Assembly (NCBI RefSeq): GCF_038069945.1
Contig: NZ_JBBPEV010000024.1
Coordinates: 1 to 6,666, forward strand
DNA length: 6,666 nt
From: Aquabacterium sp. A3
Lineage (GTDB): Bacteria; Pseudomonadota; Gammaproteobacteria; Burkholderiales; Burkholderiaceae_C
Direction: 5' to 3'
Positions 122 to 6,666 of this stretch are shown piece by piece. Each line of letters begins with the position of its first letter. The first letter of the stretch is position 1. The notes under the pieces were generated by a model. It ran no database searches. It saw only the letters and a program-made list of their open reading frames with translations, and had not been told where the DNA came from. The translations under genes and the position numbers were made by a program.

Positions 122-236
122 CTAGAAGTAGAGAAACTATGAACGATATTGCGGCGGCCGCTGCGGCAATCTGGATGGGCTTCCCCAGCAGGTAGGTGAG
201 ATAGCATAGGCTAGCTGTGATGAGAATTCCAATCAT
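111..236 (-). pseudogene. Truncated duplicate of the 87-aa membrane protein gene, cut by IS
   Basis: Bases 122-306 are identical by eye to 1227-1411, the start of the cassette carrying the small membrane protein at 1078-1341. The reading frame opens at the same ATG (234-236) and keeps the first 38 residues (MIGILITASL...). It then enters the IS end, where GGG-AAG-GTC-TGA adds three foreign residues and a stop at 111-113. The remnant holds about one and a half membrane segments and is most likely non-functional. Its cassette boundary is the R' cut point at 306/307, and its own attC was lost with the 3' half. Confidence 0.75.
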
Positions 237-300
237 TGGAATGGCTTATTGAGTTCGATTGATGGGTTTGGCGAATGGCCGTGACGATTGTTTTACGGGA

Positions 301-418
301 GCCTAACTACCAAGGTAACCGGCGCCGGAGCCCGCCAGGGCGGAGGGCACAACCAAGGGCCGTGAAAATGCCGAAGGCATGGCCCTTGGTTGCGTCCGCG
401 TTGACCTGACAGTTAGGC
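301..418 (-). repeat. attC: attC-1 (118 bp), belongs to the cassette of 504-908
   Basis: Read on the minus strand it starts with R'' GCCTAAC (412-418) and ends with R' GTTAGGC (301-307). The inner L'' GGTCAACG pairs with L' CGGTTACC and leaves one extra C unpaired. The centre folds as a hairpin of CCAAGGGCC against GGCCCTTGG. The integrase cut point on the minus strand is between G307 and T306. This copy has a single G at position 362, where most copies have A, which turns one central stem pair into a G-T wobble. It also carries GCTGTGGC just outside R'' where the others have GCTGGGGC. Confidence 0.95.
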
Positions 419-461
419 TGTGGCGCGGAGTGGAAGGTTTTTGCATTACGCCTGCCTGCAG

Positions 462-496
462 TTTTGAGTGTTGTACTTCATGTGTCAATCCGCGCC
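462..496 (-). repeat. Shared 3' cassette element, copy 1
   Basis: The stretch lies between the stop codon (504-506) and attC-1. On the plus strand it reads TTTTGAGTGTTGTACTTC followed by ATGTGTCAATCCGCGCC. It is one of five copies found at this place in different cassettes; the others are at 2118, 2708, 4029 and 5801. It contains a near-palindrome, TTGnAC against GTGTCAA. Its outline resembles the terminal repeats of IS30-family elements (TGTTGCACTT...), but no transposase or second end is present, so that origin is only a guess. Confidence 0.6.
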
Positions 497-503
497 ACGG
501 TGC

Positions 504-908
504 TTAGGCCACTGCATTCTTACTCCCCTTGCTCTCTCTGCTTGGTAGATCCTGCCACCAAGACCACACGCAGGCAACTGTGACTAGAGCAAAGCCTGTT
601 GATGCTTGATAGTGGTGTGGGCTGAACCAGGACGCTGACATTGCCAAGGACATCAGTGCAGCTAACGCAGCTGGGACAGCACGGATTGCCCGCCATAGGC
701 GGCTGTGCTTTGGAAGTGAGACGGAAGCGCCAACAGCAAGAAGAATAAGCACCGAGGCGCTTATTGCTTCCATAAGCGGGATGCTGATGGAGTCACTATC
801 TGGCAGGTAAAAGCCCGCTTTTAGATTGCTGTCGAGGACATGAAAAAGTGTGCCGTTCGCGACAAGCAATGACGCCAGCATTACCAGGAAAGTGCGCAAG
901 CCTTGCAT
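504..908 (-). CDS. Small four-helix membrane protein of unknown function (cassette gene)
   Basis: The product is 134 residues starting MQGLRTFLVML. I chose the ATG at 906-908, which sits 11 nt after attC-2. The longer open frame upstream only translates attC sequence and has no ATG. Four hydrophobic stretches are visible at about residues 6-25, 45-65, 74-93 and 103-118. A basic patch (K67, H68, R70, R73, R76) lies between helices 2 and 3, and the tail is polar and charged (SRESKGSK), which suggests cytoplasmic positive loops in the inner membrane. No signature motif is recognised. No convincing Shine-Dalgarno precedes the start, as is common in cassette genes. The cassette spans 307-925. Function is unknown; a membrane immunity or stress role would be speculation. 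Confidence 0.75.
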   Translation of the reverse strand: MQGLRTFLVMLASLLVANGTLFHVLDSNLKAGFYLPDSDSISIPLMEAISASVLILLAVGASVSLPKHSRLWRAIRAVPAALAALMSLAMSASWFSPHHYQASTGFALVTVACVWSWWQDLPSRESKGSKNAVA

Positions 909-919
909 AGTGCGGAGTG

Positions 920-1037
920 GCCTAACTACCAAGGTAACCGGCGCCGGAGCCCGCCAGGGCGGAGGGTACAACCAAGGGCCATGAAAATGCCGAAGGCATG
1001 GCCCTTGGTTGCGTCCGCGTTGACCTGACAGTTAGGC
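920..1037 (-). repeat. attC: attC-2 (118 bp), belongs to the cassette of 1078-1341
   Basis: R'' GCCTAAC is at 1031-1037 and R' GTTAGGC at 920-926 on the minus strand. The length and interior match the array consensus, including the CCAAGGGCCATG/CATGGCCCTTGG central hairpin and the extra C in L''. The cut point is between 926 and 925. It carries the GTACAA variant shared with attC-6 and attC-9, where others have GCACAA. Confidence 0.95.
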
Positions 1038-1077
1038 TGGGGCGCGGAGTAGAGGGCGTAGAGTTCACGAGAAACCC

Positions 1078-1341
1078 TCAAAAGACTAGCTGTATGACAC
1101 AGCCGGCTACGGAGACAGCAACGACTTTCACAGCATCATGGCGCACGCGATCAACAAGCCAAAAGAGTGCCAGGCAGAAGGCGCCATGGAGCGCTGTGTA
1201 ACCCAATGCACCTAGAAAGCTTGCCCCTAGAAGTAGAGAAACTATGAACGATATTGCGGCGGCCGCTGCGGCAATCTGGATGGGCTTCCCCAGCAGGTAG
1301 GTGAGATAGCATAGGCTAGCTGTGATGAGAATTCCAATCAT
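1078..1341 (-). CDS. 87-aa hydrophobic membrane protein, unknown function (cassette gene)
   Basis: The product begins MIGILITASLCYLTYLLG and has no family I recognise. It is almost entirely hydrophobic. Three or four membrane segments are likely, at about residues 2-17, 21-40 (opening with a run of six alanines at 24-29), 43-63 and possibly 70-87. A short charged loop, DRVRHD, lies at 64-69. An in-frame TAA lies four codons before the ATG at 1339-1341, so the start cannot move far upstream. The 64-nt leader after attC-3 shows no clear Shine-Dalgarno. The stop is only 40 nt from attC-2. The cassette spans 926-1411. Its first 185 bp are duplicated exactly at 122-306, which argues that it is a real and recently copied cassette. 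Confidence 0.7.
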   Translation of the reverse strand: MIGILITASLCYLTYLLGKPIQIAAAAAAISFIVSLLLGASFLGALGYTALHGAFCLALFWLVDRVRHDAVKVVAVSVAGCVIQLVF

Positions 1342-1405
1342 TGGAATGGCTTATTGAGTTCGATTGATGGGTTTGGCGAATGGCCGTGACGATTGTTTTA
1401 CGGGA

Positions 1406-1523
1406 GCCTAACTACCAAGGTAACCGGCGCCGGAGCCCTTCAGGGCGGAGGGCACAAGCAAGGGCCATGAGAATGCCGAAGGCATGGCCCTTGGTTGCGT
1501 CCGCGTTGACCTGACAGTTAGGC
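1406..1523 (-). repeat. attC: attC-3 (118 bp), belongs to the cassette of 1571-1933
   Basis: R'' is at 1517-1523 and R' at 1406-1412 on the minus strand, with cut point 1412/1411. It carries the CCCTTCAGGG variant in the outer stem-loop, shared with attC-7, where most copies have CCCGCCAGGG. Outside R'' the flank is AGAGGGCGTGGAGCATACGGCAA, a version shared with the attC-2 and attC-6 cassettes and different from the GTGGAAGG flank of the others. Confidence 0.95.
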
Positions 1524-1570
1524 TGGGGCGCGGAGGAGAGGGCGTGGAGCATACGGCAACCTGGATTGCC

Positions 1571-1933
1571 TTAACTTGCCGACTGAGTTGAGATGTATTT
1601 TGCAAGTGCTTCGCCCTTGAGTAATTGTCTTGCTGCTACTAGATGAACGGCTGCCTGAATAAGAGTAAATGTGGCATACGGCCAGTCTATTGGGCCGAGG
1701 ATCAAGCTTAATGGTCCGATGAAGCCTAGGAAGTAAAATATATAGCCCAAAGCTTTTGCCGCGCCAGCTTTGCCAATCCAAACGCTCAAACTAAGCGCGC
1801 CAAGCACGGCGGACAAGAACAGCGCTCCACCAGCGTTGGTGGGAAGAAGAACGATGCGAGCGATAGGTAAGAGAATGCTTATTGCCAGCAGTGCAAATAG
1901 CTGCTTAGGGAATTGGTTATTGGGGTGTGACAT
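1571..1933 (-). CDS. 120-aa four-helix membrane protein, unknown function (cassette gene)
   Basis: The protein starts MSHPNNQFPKQLFALL at the ATG of 1931-1933, 23 nt past attC-4. The frame is open further upstream, but only through attC. Hydrophobic segments lie at about residues 11-30, 35-53, 60-80 and 88-103. The N-terminal ten residues are polar, and the C-terminal 15-20 residues are polar with scattered lysines (KGEALAKY). A PIDWPY motif (81-86) joins helices 3 and 4. The layout (short N-tail, four helices) resembles many small inner-membrane DUFs, but I cannot assign it to one. The cassette spans 1412-1962, and the stop TAA is 47 nt from attC-3. Confidence 0.72.
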   Translation of the reverse strand: MSHPNNQFPKQLFALLAISILLPIARIVLLPTNAGGALFLSAVLGALSLSVWIGKAGAAKALGYIFYFLGFIGPLSLILGPIDWPYATFTLIQAAVHLVAARQLLKGEALAKYISTQSAS

Positions 1934-1956
1934 GGTGTGGCCGTGGTTATGTGGGA

Positions 1957-2074
1957 GCCTAACTACCAAGGTAACCGGCGCCGGAGCCCGCCAGGGCGGA
2001 GGGCACAAGCAAGGGCCATGAGAATGCCGAAGGCATGGCCCTTGGTTGCGTCCGCGTTGACCTGACAGTTAGGC
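1957..2074 (-). repeat. attC: attC-4 (118 bp), belongs to the cassette of 2204-2527
   Basis: R'' is at 2068-2074 and R' at 1957-1963 on the minus strand, with cut point 1963/1962. The interior matches the consensus: CCCGCCAGGG outer stem, GCACAAGC and the central CCATGAGAATG loop. The flank outside R'' is of the GTGGAAGGTTTT type. Confidence 0.95.
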
Positions 2075-2117
2075 TGGGGCGCGGAGTGGAAGGTTTTTAT
2101 AGTACAGCCGCCTGCAT

Positions 2118-2165
2118 TTTTGGGCATTGCACTTCACGTCTCAGTCCACGTGTGTCAATCCGCGC
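2118..2165 (-). repeat. Shared 3' cassette element, copy 2 (with small internal duplication)
   Basis: On the plus strand it reads TTTGGGCATTGCACTTCACG, then an extra segment of about 13 bp (CTCAGTCCACGTG or a shifted version of it), then TGTCAATCCGCGC. The extra segment partly repeats the CACGT core, so it looks like a local duplication within the element. It lies between the stop of the DUF2834-like gene and attC-4. Confidence 0.55.
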
Positions 2166-2203
2166 TGGGGTGATATGCGGGAAGCGAGAGGCGGCACTGG
2201 GAC

Positions 2204-2527
2204 TCATTTTCGGCCTTGTTGCATGCGAAGCAGCAGGTAGAACGCGAAGCCAGTAGCTACGCCGGGTGCAATGCCCAACACTATGGCGATCCATCCGTGC
2301 TTGACGCCGGATGACTTTGCTTCATAAAGAACCCAAGAGGTGAGAATGGCCCAGCAGCTAATTGCGTCCAGTGCGTAACCTGATGCATACGGATTGACAA
2401 AGCCAGCGGCGAATGCGCCAACTACATCGGGGTTTTGCATCAATGGTGGCGCGACGATCCAGATGAACGCGGCGGCAAATGCAATGCCGATACCCGCAAC
2501 AATCGATTTGAAGATTTGTGGAGTCAT
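2204..2527 (-). CDS. DUF2834-like small membrane protein (cassette gene)
   Basis: The product is 107 residues starting MTPQIFKSIVAGIG. Membrane segments are predicted at about 8-27, 50-66 and 78-98. The middle of the protein carries the pattern I associate with DUF2834: a GFVNPYASGYALD stretch (N45, P46, D54), then a helix ending W65-x-x-Y-E69, a short basic loop (K71, K76), and a last helix ending in FYLLLR. DUF2834 proteins are short inner-membrane proteins without an established function. The ATG at 2525-2527 is immediately preceded by a GTG that could also serve as the start. It is 20 nt past attC-5, with no strong ribosome binding site. The cassette spans 1963-2553. The family assignment is from memory of the pattern and would need a profile search. 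Confidence 0.7.
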   Translation of the reverse strand: MTPQIFKSIVAGIGIAFAAAFIWIVAPPLMQNPDVVGAFAAGFVNPYASGYALDAISCWAILTSWVLYEAKSSGVKHGWIAIVLGIAPGVATGFAFYLLLRMQQGRK

Positions 2528-2547
2528 CACGATCGTGGTTTGAAGAG

Positions 2548-2664
2548 GCCTAACGCTGAGTTCACCGGCGCCGGAGCCCGTAAGGGCGCAGGGCACCAAC
2601 ATGGGCCATCAAAATCGCGAAGCGATGGCCCATGGTGGCGTCCGCGTGCAACGCCGAGTTAGGC
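2548..2664 (-). repeat. attC: attC-5 (117 bp), divergent copy; belongs to the cassette of 2769-3296
   Basis: R'' GCCTAAC is at 2658-2664 and R' GTTAGGC at 2548-2554 on the minus strand. The architecture matches the other long sites, but the sequence differs through most of the spacer, the L boxes and the central hairpin, which is ATGGGCCATC..GATGGCCCAT instead of CCAAGGGCC..GGCCCTTGG. L'' TTGCAC against L' GTGAA keeps one unpaired G on the 5' side, so orientation is conserved. Compensatory changes on both arms keep the stem paired, which supports a working folded site. The cut point is 2554/2553. Confidence 0.92.
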
Positions 2665-2707
2665 TGGGGAGCGGAGTGGAAGGGGATGGAATAACACATG
2701 ATCTGAA

Positions 2708-2742
2708 TTTATGGGGGTTGCACTTCACGTGTCAATCCGCGC
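2708..2742 (-). repeat. Shared 3' cassette element, copy 3
   Basis: On the plus strand it reads TTTATGGGGGTTGCACTTCA followed by CGTGTCAATCCGCGC. It is close to the copy at 5801-5835 although it belongs to a cassette with a divergent attC. The element may therefore travel or be kept independently of the attC version. Confidence 0.6.
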
Positions 2743-2768
2743 TGGTGGCAGATGAGATATTGCATAAG

Positions 2769-3296
2769 TTACTCACAACGTTTCATCCCGGGTAGCTTTT
2801 TTTCTGTAATGTTTTTATTTTCTGCGCATTTGGAGGATTGGCTGATGCAACGAATTTTGTAGCCCTTGTGCATCTTTGCTTTTTTGCCTTGTACACCTTG
2901 TGTGGCTGTGATGACCCAATTCACGACTGCTTGAGCATCTGCTTGTTCTTCGAGCGTATAGCCGGTCAAGAGATATCGAACTTTGCCTTCGTACATACGG
3001 CGAGCTAAGTTTGGCGCTAACGACGCCAAGGTTGGACCTCCTGCATCAAACAATAAGAAATGCTTAAAAGTAACAAGAGGCGAAGCCCAATCACCAACAT
3101 GCTTGCTCGGAGCTATTCCGACCCACGTAATTTTCCCATCAATTCTATGTTTCCTGGCTTCTGATCCGATGCCGCCAATTCCTATGACGGCCTCATACTC
3201 AAGGTCACGTACTTGACCCATACAGTCGTTGATTCCAAATACCCCATCCTCATTGGGATCGCCTGTATGAGTTCGCTTATAGGTGAGAATGCGCAT
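2769..3296 (-). CDS. Conserved-looking soluble protein, unknown function (cassette gene)
   Basis: The product is 175 residues starting MRILTYKRTHTGDPNEDGVF. There is no signal peptide or membrane segment, so it is probably cytoplasmic. Visible blocks are the N-terminal THTGDP (9-14), FGINDCMGQVRD (20-31), a glycine-rich turn AVIGIGGIGSE (36-46) after a beta strand, and GKITWVGI (54-61). These are followed by VTFKHFLLFDAGGP (75-88) and a helix LAPNLARRMYEGKVRYLLTGYTLEEQADA. The last 40 residues are lysine-rich with three cysteines (150, 157, 174). The block order looks like a genuine enzyme- or nucleotide-binding-type fold, and I have a vague memory of similar hypothetical proteins, but no function can be named. 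The ATG is 12 nt after attC-6 with no clear Shine-Dalgarno. The cassette spans 2554-3314 and is visibly less GC-rich than its neighbours. Confidence 0.78.
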   Translation of the reverse strand: MRILTYKRTHTGDPNEDGVFGINDCMGQVRDLEYEAVIGIGGIGSEARKHRIDGKITWVGIAPSKHVGDWASPLVTFKHFLLFDAGGPTLASLAPNLARRMYEGKVRYLLTGYTLEEQADAQAVVNWVITATQGVQGKKAKMHKGYKIRCISQSSKCAENKNITEKKLPGMKRCE

Positions 3297-3308
3297 GGAA
3301 TTTTGGAA

Positions 3309-3426
3309 GCCTAACTACCAAGGTAACCGGCGCCGGAGCCCGCCAGGGCGGAGGGTACAAGCAAGGGCCATGAGAATGCCGAAGGCATGGCCCTTGGTTG
3401 CGTCCGCGTTGACCTGACAGTTAGGC
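3309..3426 (-). repeat. attC: attC-6 (118 bp), belongs to the cassette without a clear gene
   Basis: R'' is at 3420-3426 and R' at 3309-3315 on the minus strand, with cut point 3315/3314. The interior is consensus with the GTACAA variant. Outside R'' the flank reads GGGGCGCGAAGTAGAGGGCG, then TGGAGCACACGGCAAACTGG, a close match to the flank at the attC-3 cassette. Confidence 0.95.
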
Positions 3427-3867
3427 TGGGGCGCGAAGTAGAGGGCGTGGAGCACACGGCAAACTGGCCGTGGTTCGATGAACAGTGATGCTGCACAGAC
3501 GCTCCCTTTGATGTTTCCAGAGAGTCTGCCAGACGCGCGGTCTTGGTGGAAGACCACCGAGCGTGTTTGGCCAAAAGGCCGATGGCGAATGGCACTTTGG
3601 CGCCCCAGGATGTTGAGCTGACTGCCGCAGGACAGGCGGCCCACAAGGCCGATGGCGTGTGGCACTTGGGCGCAGCGCGGTGGTGAGCAGGCTGCCGGAG
3701 GACAGACGGCCGGACTGAGCGGCCAAAGTAAGACCCCATGCGTGCCGTGCTGCAGGTTCGGCGCGCGTTGAAACCGTTCAAAAGGGTAAGGCAGTGGACA
3801 CCAAACCAGGCTTCCAGAGCCTTCCGAATACTGCTCACTCGACTTCCAGAGAGCTTCGGAAACGAAG
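3427..3867 (-). other. Cassette interior with no convincing gene
   Basis: These 441 bp fill the cassette bounded by 3315 and 3873. All three minus-strand frames stay open for long stretches, and the frames read through attC-6, but none starts with a plausible leader or looks like a folded protein. The translations are rich in R, S, P, H and C. The longest minus frame with an ATG begins at 3739 and stops only inside R' of attC-6. The interior contains the 70-bp tandem repeat described separately. Cassettes without genes are known in large integrons, and some carry promoters or small RNAs; nothing here proves either. Confidence 0.6.
3569..3707. repeat. Imperfect 70-bp tandem repeat, two copies plus a partial
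   Basis: Copy A spans about 3569-3637 and copy B about 3638-3707. Both share GGCCnnAAGGCCGATGGCG, then TGGCACTT, then a more variable centre, then CTGCCGnAGGACAG. A short third start, GGCCGGACTGAGCGGCC, follows at 3708. The copies differ at many sites, including the spacer, so the duplication is not very recent. The ends contain short inverted pairs (GGCC...GGCC), which could form small hairpins. Confidence 0.65.
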
Positions 3868-3985
3868 GCCTAACTACCAAGGTAACCGGCGCCGGAGCCC
3901 TTCAGGGCGGAGGGCACAACCAAGGGCCATGAGAATGCCGAAGGCATGGCCCTTGGTTGCGTCCGCGTTGACCTGACAGTTAGGC
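3868..3985 (-). repeat. attC: attC-7 (118 bp), belongs to the PEP-CTERM cassette
   Basis: R'' is at 3979-3985 and R' at 3868-3874 on the minus strand, with cut point 3874/3873. It has the CCCTTCAGGG outer stem shared with attC-3. The flank outside R'' is GTGGAAGGTTTTG. Confidence 0.95.
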
Positions 3986-4028
3986 TGGGGCGCGGAGTGG
4001 AAGGTTTTGATAACATGTCAGTCTAGAA

Positions 4029-4060
4029 TTTTGGGTGTTGCACTTCCCGCCCCAACCTGC
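4029..4060 (-). repeat. Shared 3' cassette element, copy 4 (decayed at one end)
   Basis: On the plus strand it begins TTTTGGGTGTTGCACTTC, as in the other copies. It then diverges to CCGCCCCAACCTGC where the others have CACGTGTCAATCCGC. The half next to attC is conserved and the half next to the gene is not, so the inner part seems to be the less constrained side. Confidence 0.5.
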
Positions 4061-4086
4061 TTAGGGGCGTGGCGCGGGTCGCCCAT

Positions 4087-4764
4087 TTAATGTGAATGCG
4101 TGCGGCGAGTTTTTGGTGCGGCAAGAAAGCAGCCCATCAGCCCGCCTAAGCCAAAGAGAGCGAGCGTTCCCGGCTCCGGAACTGCTGAGACAGTAATGGT
4201 GGCTACGCCAGAACCCGTGCCATACAACCAGCGACCATCTTGGAGCTCGAAACCGGTCCATTGAGGGCCAAAGCTTGAGAGGTCGTCGGTGATGAGCGGC
4301 GTTGTTACCAGTGACAAATAGCCCTCTAGCGTGTTGACTGAAGAAAAATGGTTGTCCTCATAGACAACTACAGTCCATGGTGATCCTCCATTGATGGTGT
4401 TCGCAAAGCCAAAACGATCGGGATAAATGAATAAAAATGGCGCGTTCAATATTGGCATATCAAACAAGCCCAGCGATGCTTGAGTGATTGTCAGTTGGCT
4501 CAGCTCGTACCCGCCGAGATGTGAGACTTCCCAAAGGTCAATTGCGTCGGATTCCACTGTACCCTTAAAGATCCAGTCGCCTGTGGGGTTGGCTCCATAG
4601 GCTACTCCGCTTGGCACCCCATAGTCATCGTAAATCACATTGCTATACGATTGAGTGATGGTGATGGGTGTTGAATGCGACTGGGTTACAAAAGTGACTA
4701 AGCAAAAAGAGGCGAATAGTTCCTTGAACATGCTCTTCATGGATGTTGATTTCAGTACTGTCAT
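4087..4764 (-). CDS. PEP-CTERM sorting domain protein (cassette gene)
   Basis: The product is 225 residues. The N-terminus has a basic start and a hydrophobic core (LFASFCLVTFVT, about 16-27), then polar residues near 28-32, as in a secretion signal; M9 is an alternative start. The C-terminus has the full PEP-CTERM tripartite signal: VPEPGT (195-200), a membrane stretch LALFGLGGLMGCFLA (201-215) and a basic tail with R220-R221. Such proteins are exported and processed by an exosortase (EpsH/XrtA), commonly in exopolysaccharide-producing Gram-negatives. The middle is a beta-rich, aromatic and acidic secreted domain (VYEDNHFSS, PQWTGFELQDGRWLYG) with no family I recognise. An AAGGA lies about 10 nt before the ATG, and the 74-nt leader contains a promoter candidate. 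The cassette spans 3874-4844. The exosortase must be encoded elsewhere. Confidence 0.9.
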   Translation of the reverse strand: MTVLKSTSMKSMFKELFASFCLVTFVTQSHSTPITITQSYSNVIYDDYGVPSGVAYGANPTGDWIFKGTVESDAIDLWEVSHLGGYELSQLTITQASLGLFDMPILNAPFLFIYPDRFGFANTINGGSPWTVVVYEDNHFSSVNTLEGYLSLVTTPLITDDLSSFGPQWTGFELQDGRWLYGTGSGVATITVSAVPEPGTLALFGLGGLMGCFLAAPKTRRTHSH

Positions 4765-4802
4765 GGGAATTTTTCCTTGTGCTTTGGTGTCCGTTTGCGT
4801 TC

Positions 4803-4831
4803 TTGGTACGAATGGTGTTGTTTGTAGTCAA
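4803..4831 (-). promoter_or_regulatory. Candidate cassette-borne promoter for the PEP-CTERM gene
   Basis: On the minus strand, TTGACT (4826-4831) is five of six to the sigma-70 -35 box. It is followed after exactly 17 nt by TACCAA (4803-4808), a weak -10 with three of six matches. It lies in the longest leader of the array, about 40-65 nt upstream of the start codon. The good spacing and the unusual leader length support it; the poor -10 weakens it. Confidence 0.35.
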
Positions 4832-4838
4832 TGTAGGA

Positions 4839-4928
4839 GCCTAACGCCCGCGGTAAGCTGCGCCGGAGCGAAGCGGAGGGCACCAACAGGCAGAGCCTGT
4901 TGGCGTCAGCTTGACCAACCAGTTAGGC
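4839..4928 (-). repeat. attC: attC-8 (90 bp), unrelated type; belongs to the cassette of 5040-5624
   Basis: R'' GCCTAAC is at 4922-4928 and R' GTTAGGC at 4839-4845 on the minus strand. L'' GGTCAAGCTG pairs with L' CAGCTTACC and again leaves an extra C on the 5' side. The centre has a hairpin CCAACAGGCTCTGCCTGTTGG and an outer CCGCTTCGCTCCGG-type arm. Beyond the R boxes and the general fold it shares little with the 118-bp sites and is 28 bp shorter, so this cassette was probably captured from a different integron. The cut point is 4845/4844. Confidence 0.93.
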
Positions 4929-5039
4929 CATTTTGCCTTTGACATGAACAAGATGCCTCCCAACGTATTACTTTTCAGCCGTAACATTTTTCCATTTTTT
5001 AACCCAACCGCTCATATGAGGGAGATCCTATTGCTTTTT
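4929..5039 (-). other. AT-rich 3' region of the exported-protein cassette
   Basis: These 111 bp separate the stop codon from attC-8. The stretch has T runs on the plus strand (GCTTTTTTTAA, CCATTTTTTAACCC) and is clearly AT-richer than the rest of the window. It lacks the shared 3' element. The A runs on the minus strand are not preceded by a strong hairpin, so no terminator is called. A 34-codon frame (4841-4945) with an upstream GGGAGG runs from here into attC-8, and a 15-codon frame starts at the palindrome CTCATATGAG; neither is convincing. Confidence 0.4.
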
Positions 5040-5624
5040 TTAATGGTCGATTCTGTCAAGCGTTTTTGCGGCATCGCAAAGCTTATTCGCTGCCCCCTTG
5101 ATTGATGTGTCAACTTGATCTTTGATTGATGGGCCATCAGGAGATAGATCTAGCGGGAACTCTAGGTCTAAAAATTCCTGGGAAGCTTTGAAGCTAGGGC
5201 GTTTCACAGTGTCTGCTTCGCTGCGTGTAATGGCAAAGTATTGAAGTGCAAGTGAGAGTACAGGCTTCGCCTTTAATGACAGCACAACTACACGGTTAGC
5301 ATTCGCGCTGTCGATGATAGTTGGCAATGCCTGCATTGGGTCTTCCCCGTTCACCTCAATGAAACCATAATATGAGCGCAAGTCACATTGCGCTGCGCCT
5401 TTGTAGACACCATCGTGGAAAGTCGAGAGGATTGCTAGAAACATCCGCTCCATTTTTTGTGCCAAGCGAACATCACTATTCCGATCTTCTGCATCAGGTC
5501 TAGGGATGCTGCTGTCTGTGGCGTAGATGAGGAATCGCCGCTGATCTTTGGCGTCTTGTGCGTATACGGAGCATCCAATCAAGAACGCCAGAAGGGTGAC
5601 GCCTATTTGCTTATACATATGCAT
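5040..5624 (-). CDS. Exported protein or lipoprotein of unknown function (cassette gene)
   Basis: The product is 194 residues starting MHMYKQIGVTLLAFLIGCSVYAQD. It has a clear export signal: a lysine, a hydrophobic core at 7-17, then LIGC (15-18), which fits a lipobox, and immediately afterwards VYA-QD, which fits signal peptidase I. Which peptidase acts cannot be decided by eye. The mature part is soluble and charged. It has the blocks RRFLIYATDSS (29-39), a helix AQKMERMFLAILSTFHDGVYKG, an NRVVVLSLKAKPVLSLALQYF strand/helix pair and a C-terminal helix IKGAANKLCDAAKTLDRI. No family is recognised. M3 is an alternative start. The leader after attC-9 is 15 nt with only a weak Shine-Dalgarno (AATAAGT). 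The cassette spans 4845-5645 and differs from its neighbours in base composition and attC type. Confidence 0.82.
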   Translation of the reverse strand: MHMYKQIGVTLLAFLIGCSVYAQDAKDQRRFLIYATDSSIPRPDAEDRNSDVRLAQKMERMFLAILSTFHDGVYKGAAQCDLRSYYGFIEVNGEDPMQALPTIIDSANANRVVVLSLKAKPVLSLALQYFAITRSEADTVKRPSFKASQEFLDLEFPLDLSPDGPSIKDQVDTSIKGAANKLCDAAKTLDRIDH

Positions 5625-5639
5625 ACTTATTAAGTAGTG

Positions 5640-5757
5640 GCCTAACTACCAAGGTAACCGGCGCCGGAGCCCTTTAGGGCGGAGGGTACAACCAAGGGCC
5701 ATGAAAATGCCGAAGGCATGGCCCTTGGTTGCGTCCGCGTTGACCTGACAGTTAGGC
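5640..5757 (-). repeat. attC: attC-9 (118 bp), belongs to the Imm50-like cassette
   Basis: R'' is at 5751-5757 and R' at 5640-5646 on the minus strand, with cut point 5646/5645. It has the unique outer-stem variant CCCTTTAGGG and the GTACAA variant. The central loop reads CCATGAAAATG. Confidence 0.95.
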
Positions 5758-5800
5758 TGGGGCGCGGAGTGGAAGGTTTTGGTGCTGTGTGAGCCTGCAT

Positions 5801-5835
5801 TTTTGGGTGTTGCACTTGACGTGTCAATCCGCGCC
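5801..5835 (-). repeat. Shared 3' cassette element, copy 5
   Basis: On the plus strand it reads TTTTGGGTGTTGCACTTGAC, then GTGTCAATCCGCGCC. It is the cleanest full-length copy and a good reference for the others. It ends 28 bp before the stop codon of the Imm50-like gene at 5864-5866. Confidence 0.6.
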
Positions 5836-5863
5836 AGTGTTTATCGCTTGGCGGAGGCAATGC

Positions 5864-6286
5864 TCACTTCGCATAGGGCGTGATGGTGATGAGCTGAGCT
5901 GTTTGGGCGGTGAATGAAGCCTCAAAGAGGTAGCAGTGCTCTAGCTCAACTTTGATGATGGTTTGCTCTTGCTTGTCTCGGGCCTGCGCTAGCTCCAGGT
6001 TCAGTGATGAGATGACGTTCTGGCCATTGAAGCCTTCGACGTGAACTTCGCTGACGCCCTCAAACCGGAAATGAAGCACTGCATCGCCATGCAACTTGTA
6101 GTGGCCTTCTGGCGTGATCTCGGAGGTCATTACCCATCCGCGCAAGTGCAAGTCAAGTGTCGGGGATGGTTTGCCCTGCGTCCTATCGAGAGATAGCGTG
6201 AACACCTCTGCATCATGAAAGCTCGGCCAAAGCCCGAAGTGGGCGATGACGCGCTCATGACCGACGATGAACTCATGTGCTTCCAT
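5864..6286 (-). CDS. Imm50-like immunity protein (cassette gene)
   Basis: The product is 140 residues starting MEAHEFIVGHERVIAHFGLWPSFHD. The hallmark is FG-x-WPSFHDAEV (17-28) near the N-terminus, followed by alternating beta strands (LSLDR, TLDLHLRGWVMT, VLHFRFEGVSEVHVEGF) and a QNVISSLNLEL segment. This pattern matches my memory of the Imm50 family of polymorphic-toxin immunity proteins. Such proteins neutralise a toxin delivered by contact-dependent or type VI systems, presumably in the cytoplasm since there is no signal peptide. No toxin gene lies beside it, so it would be an orphan. The ATG (6284-6286) is only 8 nt past attC-10, without a Shine-Dalgarno; the frame continues upstream only through attC. 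The cassette spans 5646-6300. The family is inferred from the motif, not from a search. Confidence 0.75.
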   Translation of the reverse strand: MEAHEFIVGHERVIAHFGLWPSFHDAEVFTLSLDRTQGKPSPTLDLHLRGWVMTSEITPEGHYKLHGDAVLHFRFEGVSEVHVEGFNGQNVISSLNLELAQARDKQEQTIIKVELEHCYLFEASFTAQTAQLITITPYAK

Positions 6287-6294
6287 AAACAGTG

Positions 6295-6412
6295 GCCTAA
6301 CTACCAAGGTAACCGGCGCCGGAGCCCGCCAGGGCGGAGGGCACAACCAAGGGCCATGAGAATGCCGAAGGCATGGCCCTTGGTTGCGTCCGCGTTGACC
6401 TGACAGTTAGGC
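6295..6412 (-). repeat. attC: attC-10 (118 bp), belongs to the truncated right-edge cassette
   Basis: R'' is at 6406-6412 and R' at 6295-6301 on the minus strand, with cut point 6301/6300. The interior is consensus (CCCGCCAGGG, GCACAACC, CCATGAGAATG). The flank GTGGAAGGTTTTCAT matches the other members of that flank group, but the shared 35-bp element is missing from this cassette. Confidence 0.95.
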
Positions 6413-6443
6413 TGGGGCGCGGAGTGGAAGGTTTTCATATTAC

Positions 6444-6545
6444 TCACGGCAGGAGGGCTGGGCGTTGCTCTTTGCTCGATAGTTTACGCATTAATTTTTT
6501 CCGCACCCAGCAACCAACAACTGGGGTCCATATGAGCGCTGCTAA
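6444..6545 (-). pseudogene. C-terminal remnant of a cassette gene truncated by the IS
   Basis: From the IS junction the minus strand reads LAALIWTPVVGCWVRKK then LMRKLSSKEQRPALLP and a TGA at 6444-6446, 31 nt before attC-10. The spacing from stop to attC is normal for this array. A hydrophobic stretch followed by a basic tail suggests the last helix and cytoplasmic tail of another small membrane protein. The 5' part is missing beyond the IS. The other frames stop sooner, but the piece is too short to be certain that this frame was the coding one. Confidence 0.45.
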
Positions 6546-6666
6546 GGAAGGTCTGAACAACTCGTTTGCGAGGCAACAGGCGGCGTGATCGCTTCGACAA
6601 ATGAGCCGAATGCATCGCAGACCAGCCCCCATGACGCTGAAACGCACGTCAAAGGGTGCGCGACCC
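6546..6666 (+). mobile_element. Insertion sequence end, right copy (IS5-like by tip and target)
   Basis: The segment is a perfect inverted copy of 1-121, with its tip at 6546 and the interior running past 6666. The bases just outside (6542-6545) are CTAA, again fitting YTAR. CTAA here and CTAG at the left are not direct repeats of one another, so the two copies are separate insertions. The same end of the element faces the array on both sides, so the two copies have opposite orientation. Confidence 0.6.
6601..6666 (+). CDS. Possible transposase N-terminus, runs off the window (mirrored at 1-66)
   Basis: An ATG 55 nt inside the IS tip opens a frame that continues to the window edge as MSRMHRRPAPMTLKRTSKGA and two more residues. 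A start this close to the tip is usual for IS5-family transposases, and the segment is basic. Twenty-two codons contain no recognisable domain, no Shine-Dalgarno is obvious, and M11 is an alternative start. The same frame exists on the minus strand at 1-66 in the left copy. Confidence 0.25.
   Translation, partial: MSRMHRRPAPMTLKRTSKGARP

Follow-up and report, generated by a model that had tools for sequence, protein, structure and literature searches.

Shared 3' tails and differing attC sites in a sedentary chromosomal integron of Aquabacterium sp. A3 suggest possible loss and replacement of attC

Sedentary chromosomal integrons have a long cassette array running one way, attC sites typical of the host, a chromosomal integrase gene (intI) and paralogous non-coding cassettes, as in Vibrio and Xanthomonas (PMC1382264). 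Their non-coding cassettes resemble homologs along the whole length (Boucher 2006, PMC1382264), and gene conversion has been discussed as a possible cause of the homogeneity of attC sites in Vibrio (PMC1382264). Here we describe a 6,666-nucleotide (nt) stretch of DNA from Aquabacterium sp. A3 (contig NZ_JBBPEV010000024.1; the window is this whole stretch), which belongs to an integron sharing the one-way array, host-typical attC sites, chromosomal intI and paralogous non-coding cassettes. It differs in that the ends of a non-coding cassette, and a second family of 3' tails, are joined to unrelated coding cassettes. We suggest as a possible reading, held with less than even confidence, that attC is not a fixed part of its cassette: whole modules may be deleted or exchanged at the R'' end of the site by slippage at the base of the attC hairpin, incoming cassettes may be converted to the host attC type, and gene-less cassettes may donate their 3' ends.

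Three described kinds of cassette come closest to this. Fused cassettes formed through attC loss are known and are termed rare (PMC4670013, PMC8876359). In class 1 integrons such fusions join two genes, whereas here one partner appears gene-less, three joins fall at R'' and many cassettes carry tails. In class 1 and class 2 integrons, attC can be replaced by part of attI at R'' (PMC12901181). A rearrangement at R'' that replaces attC would be common to these Delta-attI-type cassettes and those described here. There the incoming sequence is part of attI; here, in chromosomal arrays, it would be a different attC, which may or may not bring a 77-nt leader. Finally, cassettes without an open reading frame (ORF) bear attC but no gene, and some have promoters or small RNAs (PMC8876359). 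The body that we call B is likewise an attC-bearing cassette without a gene; unlike those, it matches no Rfam family and its 3' end recurs in coding cassettes. A search of titles and abstract openings found no published account of attC swapping between species, and no literature on integron attC sites in Aquabacterium was found; most subscription journals lay outside both searches.

The original prediction, made from the letters of the window alone, described ten sites of the form GCCTAAC...GTTAGGC on one strand, dividing the region into leftward cassettes. A covariance model built from 20 attC sites, four of them from the window, matched all ten strongly, including the six outside the training set (E-values 1e-32 to 5e-19). 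All matches were on the minus strand, which upholds the leftward orientation. In the consensus structure of the 20 sites and in the model matches, the arms R''/R' and L''/L' are paired. The sites are as follows.

301-418, minus strand: attC, 118 bp
920-1037, minus strand: attC, 118 bp
1406-1523, minus strand: attC, 118 bp
1957-2074, minus strand: attC, 118 bp
2548-2664, minus strand: attC, 117-bp variant
3309-3426, minus strand: attC, 118 bp
3868-3985, minus strand: attC, 118 bp
4839-4928, minus strand: attC, 90 bp, of a different family, without a tail
5640-5757, minus strand: attC, 118 bp
6295-6412, minus strand: attC, 118 bp

The eight 118-bp sites had been called nearly the same sequence, and their pairwise identity is indeed 95-99%, 5640-5757 being the most divergent; the other two measure 117 and 90 bp. 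Eight intact cassettes had been counted, but ten consecutive sites enclose nine, and one of the nine (body 3427-3867) shows no coding signature in any forward frame. The ninth cassette, the gene-less cassette and the shared 3' tails were not part of the original prediction. The 90-bp attC at 4839-4928 has 96.6% identity with plasmid-borne sites in Pseudomonas, Comamonas and Klebsiella quasipneumoniae, and because of this its cassette is likely to derive from another attC pool.

Two families of tails precede attC after unrelated genes: tail A, 77 nt long, and tail B, which consists of pieces of the gene-less cassette. In the window they are arranged as follows.

419-495, minus strand: tail A
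1038-1075, minus strand: short tail B, 38 nt
1524-1564, minus strand: short tail B, 41 nt
2075-2165, minus strand: tail A with its first 14 bases duplicated at the 5' end
2665-2742, minus strand: tail A
3427-3867, minus strand: body B of the gene-less cassette (447 bp with TTAGGC at 3868-3873 included)
3986-4045, minus strand: diverged tail A
5758-5834, minus strand: tail A, which the corresponding cassette of sister genome G368 lacks
6413-6435, minus strand: 3' end of tail A only

The repeat families of the window, one with nine 142-nt copies and one with ten 39-nt copies, lie far above chance. Across the A3 genome about 20 cassettes end in tail A (17 fit the A pattern and the rest are more diverged), and the 26 matches to tail A all lie on array contigs and all start against attC. 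B tails, 3' pieces of body B of 38 to 214 nt, stand at the end of another nine cassettes, of which one is interrupted by the end of its contig. The sharing is one-sided. In an end-anchored test of 58 complete A3 cassettes (score of at least 18, the maximum of 1500 shuffled comparisons being 11), 460 of the 1653 pairs shared only the tail and none only the head, and 48 of the cassettes had at least one tail-only partner. With longer tails (score of at least 30 over 60 nt) there were 285 tail-only pairs, involving 40 cassettes, against no head-only pair. The 5' edge of tail A is sharp: among 22 distinct copies, pairwise identity is about 0.26 upstream of the edge and about 0.85 inside. A 12-nt end resembling CTCCGCGCCCCA stands before R'' in 74 of 75 canonical 118-bp sites (attC118) and in 55 of 229 other sites from 12 genomes; therefore, the travelling unit exceeds attC itself. 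A third tail family, with CTGCTACTTGCACC before R'', was seen in one cassette of the Aquabacterium fontiphilum locus L264, in many G368 cassettes with 85-bp attC sites and in one A3 cassette.

The tails could be functional 3' elements under selection, for example promoters for the next cassette, that spread by their usefulness. Many copies of tail A contain TTGACA in the cassette direction, followed in some by AAAAAT after 17 nt; both promoter-like matches of the window fall in A tails, and tails resembling A are present in three genomes from two other genera. However, two such matches are fewer than the shuffle mean of 4.5, the spacer bases are as conserved as the hexamer, and tail A has no conserved RNA fold (-0.3 kcal/mol, without a compensatory pair). 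A useful element would also leave unexplained why B tails come in many lengths and why attC is replaced precisely, so we consider selection for function an improbable cause of the pattern.

The cassette with body B spans window positions 3309-3873. A whole-genome search gave 25 matches to the body, all on array contigs or at the array end of contig C5. Thirteen copies are complete or nearly so: nine are full-length, two differ in the middle and two are short of one unit of a 70-bp tandem repeat. Among seven full-length copies, the pairwise differences at the three codon positions number 332, 308 and 407, and nonsynonymous changes exceed synonymous ones 3- to 5-fold in each of the three forward frames; for the reverse strand, the check covered stops only. 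An ORF running through body B and attC (189 amino acids in the window) was rejected as a gene, as it contains stops in some copies and has no codon signature. G368 carries a full-length copy with 88% identity, and some match to B, mostly short, occurs in 19 of 399 genomes of the family, A3 included (up to two candidates were scored per genome). B is thus known both as a free cassette and as the sequence that the B tails contain.

The comparison with related genomes covered 313 attC records and 260 complete cassettes in loci of 25 genomes; the site detector used for this set recovers 60 of the 65 A3 sites, and the sister genomes are mostly drafts. Cassettes sharing a head but differing in the end formed 125 pairs, 88 within one genome and 37 between genomes, several of them involving a missed attC. 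The 88 stem mostly from repeated families of genomes G159 and G402, and with G159-G402 family matches excluded eight between-genome pairs were left. These include four genes whose tails differ between species, and in three of the four the sequences join at the same point, the first bases of R''. Each of these three genes is followed by tail A and attC118 in one species, and in a sister species by a bare attC that belongs to a different type. Over 468 nt, the Imm50 cassette in the window and its G368 counterpart are 98.5% identical, but the window copy continues into tail A and a canonical attC and the G368 body has a different 118-bp attC directly on its 3' side. The second gene, a 419-nt body, has tail A and attC118 in A. 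fontiphilum and an 85-bp attC in G368 (91% identity); the A3 copy, 75% alike to that of G368, also has tail A. The third, the gene of cassette C9_2, ends in tail A in A3 and in a bare attC of another type in G159 (75% identity). All three lose homology at the same place, namely after the first two bases of R'' in the bare copy and after the first two of tail A in its counterpart. The rest of the eight comprise the second gene's A3 copy, two B-type cassette pairs and a pair with a missed attC. It is likely, from this comparison of sequences, that whole sites were lost or exchanged in three cassette genes.

Other pairs differ in attC alone. We inspected the 25 with the largest excess of body identity over attC identity among 570 pairs matched through the body up to R'', and three changes of attC type with the body or tail kept stood out. 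A cassette with tail A (91% identity) has attC118 in A3 and an 85-bp attC in G368, with the first 9 attC bases identical; the gene-less B has a 118-bp site in A3 and an 85-bp site in G368, with the first 18 bases identical; and one gene present twice in G368 (84% identity) has a 118-bp and an 85-bp site, with the first 13 bases identical. These stretches place the exchange inside the R''-L'' arm. In locus L214 of G368, a B cassette has an 85-bp attC whose first 18 bases are of the 118-bp type, that is, a mosaic attC.

That array contigs end in repeats and that most sister genomes are drafts raises the question of assembly chimeras at repeats. We regard this as highly improbable, since one and the same junction is common to three genes from four genomes (A3, A. 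fontiphilum, G368 and G159), and the A3 and A. fontiphilum copies of one gene both have tail A. It is also very unlikely that tail A is a tiny mobile element inserting just before R''. Such an element would fit the sharp 5' edge and the constant position relative to attC, but the attC type switches along with the tail in all three A pairs, and the 74 of 75 canonical attC118 sites already have an A- or B-like 3' end, which leaves one candidate empty site.

The explanation that we favour, tentatively and short of even confidence, is that a gene lost its own attC, or had it replaced, through slippage or template switching at the hairpin base, and so came to carry the tail and attC that had belonged to a different cassette. 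Replication would meet a folded attC hairpin, and the new strand would leave the template at the hairpin base. Resuming past the hairpin would delete attC exactly and fuse the gene to the downstream cassette, a gene-less leader thereby becoming a tail; landing inside another attC would replace the site. Skipping would put the junction at R'', as seen in the three A swaps, and replacement would put it at R'' or slightly inside the arm, as seen in the three attC changes. Repeated over time, such events could turn foreign attC sites into the host type and yield a uniform attC family.

Traces expected of attC loss were sought within cassette bodies. Sequence of the kind that precedes attC118 was found inside bodies five times in the 313 records, compared with 0 to 3 times (mean 0.55) for 20 shuffled motifs and once on the reverse strand. 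Three of the five matches run straight into an A-like tail, 77-80 nt from attC: A. fontiphilum L262-|5, which fits the A pattern, G159 L219-|4, which fits a shorter A motif, and A. fontiphilum L262-|15, assigned by eye. The other two correspond to a missed attC of another type and to a site 848 nt from the 3' end. G422 L274-|2 is a fourth likely case, recognized by eye. These arrangements suggest that the attC of an upstream cassette was wholly or partly lost in these three cassettes (the last assigned by eye), and it is from such leftover pre-attC sequence directly before A-like tails that we infer the direction of change, namely that attC was lost and the tail gained. The octamers before tail A also resemble those before R'' more often than flanking octamers do (23 distinct octamers, p 0.004). 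The median distance from the stop codon to tail A is 27.5 nt (n=20), and that from the stop codon to R'' is 48 nt in tail-less cassettes (n=77) and 104 nt in A cassettes. The distance to tail A is thus nearer to the tail-less value than the A-cassette distance to R'' is, which we count in favour of attC loss.

Some candidates were discarded. Cassette C11_2, which looked like a fusion, is actually two cassettes with an inner attC whose R'' reads GCCTAAA, and an A-like start right after attC in G159 L218 proved to be noise ahead of a transposase-like frame, which we take to resemble IS30. G402 has a homolog of a C8 cassette gene outside the array; the only attC close to it is weak, and we left it out of the count. 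In the bodies of A3 cassettes, no pieces of attC were detected.

A number of observations speak against hairpin-base slippage or fit it poorly. The sequence common to the A junctions is only 2 bp (GC). The fourth gene with differing tails (A. fontiphilum L264-|3 and G368 L216+|3, 86% identity) breaks away from R'', homology stopping 75 nt before it in one copy and 200 nt in the other. The attC-only changes lie 9-18 bases into attC and not exactly at R''; they need replacement and not skipping, so that two outcomes of one process have to be assumed. B tails begin at many points; therefore, imprecise joins also occur. Tails and attC differ in age or constraint, with identities of 83% for A, 89% for B and 96% for attC, and in G368 the asymmetry of sharing is reversed (49 head-only and 25 tail-only pairs). 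Only 39% of the pre-A octamers exceed the 90th percentile of the null, compared with 54% of true pre-R'' octamers, and the distance from the stop codon to tail A differs from the tail-less distance to R'' (p 0.015). A free A cassette, now or formerly, is expected because simple skipping predicts it, and none was found: the shortest body among the 260 complete cassettes is 184 bp, gaps of up to 30 bp not being counted. The exact pattern of R' followed by tail A was likewise unmatched in 231 loci.

A further point of this kind is that cassettes of mobile integrons are described in which part of attI has taken the place of attC by a rearrangement at R'' (PMC12901181), which lends weight to the integrase itself recombining at R'' and swapping one attC for another site. 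The A3 genome has a complete intI. However, the three A junctions retain only the GC of R'', and a cut by IntI at its known position would leave GCCTAA on the gene side. We therefore judge integrase-mediated swapping to be unlikely.

Homologous recombination or gene conversion among array copies, a not very likely alternative in our estimate, would spread a block of tail and attC, with the R'' edge marking the end of similarity. Gene conversion between 59-base elements was proposed for Vibrio (PMC1382264). At 96%, attC is more uniform than the tails (mean identity in the 13 A-tailed cassettes compared), and the same 12-nt upstream extension at 74 of 75 canonical attC118 sites means that a longer block moves together; moreover, in the attC-only changes the two sites agree over 9-18 bases at the start of attC and 7-10 at its end. 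On the left side, the junctions of the three A swaps share about 2 bp, which is too short for ordinary homologous recombination.

Because the swap pairs give exact alternative sequences around one point, slippage at the hairpin base is a process open to laboratory testing. If it is true, the attC type would say little about the origin of a cassette, a concern for studies that trace cassettes by attC, and the process would offer a workable way for host-specific attC families, as well as new cassettes, to arise. Loss and exchange of attC may partly account for the alike-looking sites of one species.

The original prediction took the region for part of a chromosomal integron with a host-specific attC family and saw no integrase. 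The latter holds for the window but not for the genome: contig C5 carries a complete integron integrase gene beside parC, encoding 349 amino acids without an internal stop (TIGR02249, 465 bits with a cut-off of 265; PRK15417, 483 bits with a cut-off of 435). On C5 intI adjoins parC; after it come genes like VapC and ParD and then the beginning of a B cassette, at which the contig ends. Contig C4 starts inside the array and carries parE (NCBIfam, 692 bits, just under the cut-off of 723). The order of the locus is therefore likely to be parC-intI-array-parE, with the order of C5 and C4 inferred. With intI beside parC and parE on the contig at the other end of the array, the array is a sedentary chromosomal integron. 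The covariance model found 65 attC sites in 160,969 searched bases of the genome (66 rows, one site being reported on both strands), 51 of them 118 bp long. As these are the sites of the searched stretches, the array has at least 65. The repeats are not dispersed through the genome, since all 40 scored attC matches (from 81 candidates, genome-wide) lie on contigs C4, C8, C9, C11, C13 and C24. The host-typical character of the attC family was also borne out: among the IntI relatives listed (at least 80), A. fontiphilum has the closest integrase, with 77% identity, and nearly all attC matches. Two of the 65 sites, adjoining intI, are decayed. The only sites seen beside intI, at positions 6323-7580 of locus L051, are attC-like and decayed; they lie among toxin-antitoxin genes resembling VapC and ParD, and this stretch is likely an older part of the array.

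The genes of the window cassettes are listed below.

504-905, minus strand: 133 amino acids, weak DUF2919 likeness below the cut-off (longer reading 504-971)
1078-1341, minus strand: 87 amino acids
1571-1930, minus strand: 119 amino acids
2204-2530, minus strand: 108 amino acids, DUF2834 (Pfam PF11196, 64.6 bits, cut-off 22.9; longer reading 2204-2602)
2769-3296, minus strand: 175 amino acids; the same cassette is also on contig C13
4087-4764, minus strand: 225 amino acids, PEP-CTERM sorting signal
5040-5624, minus strand: 194 amino acids
5864-6286, minus strand: 140 amino acids, Imm50 (Pfam PF15594, 39.2 bits, cut-off 27.1; longer reading 5864-6346)

In the family search of the window, only Imm50, DUF2834 and PEP-CTERM exceeded their cut-offs, with DUF2919 below its own, and the other cassette genes had no family. 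At the canonical attC118 sites of the window, cassette-strand frames stay open through attC and stop in its final bases, which produces many spurious long ORFs. Two PADLOC defence matches were very weak and were not used. Rfam gave a single chance match in the window (E 0.74) and three in nine loci (two tRNAs and ureB RNA), none of them in a cassette and none a group II intron. In a plasmid comparison 50 records matched; none covered 80% of the query in one place, and the best, from Aquabacterium olei, covered 18%. By eye, the PEP-CTERM sorting signal is also present on cassette C4_3.

The window is the entire contig C24, both ends of which are repeats, of a 3.83-Mb draft genome. The limits of the array given earlier, 122-6545, are exact, as they are bounded by two inverted copies of the end of an insertion sequence (IS).

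1-121, no strand assigned: inward-facing IS end, within a 128-bp inverted repeat with 6539-6666; target-like CTAG at 122-125
122-300, minus strand: cassette truncated by the IS, with 182 of 182 bases (120-301) identical to 1225-1406
6546-6666, no strand assigned: inward-facing IS end, inverted copy of 1-121; CTAA at 6542-6545

Each end of the window thus holds one cut cassette, outside the nine complete ones. The IS, which we assume to be of the IS5 family from its resemblance, is represented in the contigs read by its ends only. The same end terminates four contigs (the window, C1, C5 and C10), and of its five copies three are followed by CTAG, one by TTAG and one by CTTA. As one end stops four contigs and is flanked by these tetranucleotides, the IS is multicopy in the genome and contributed to the breakage of the assembly.

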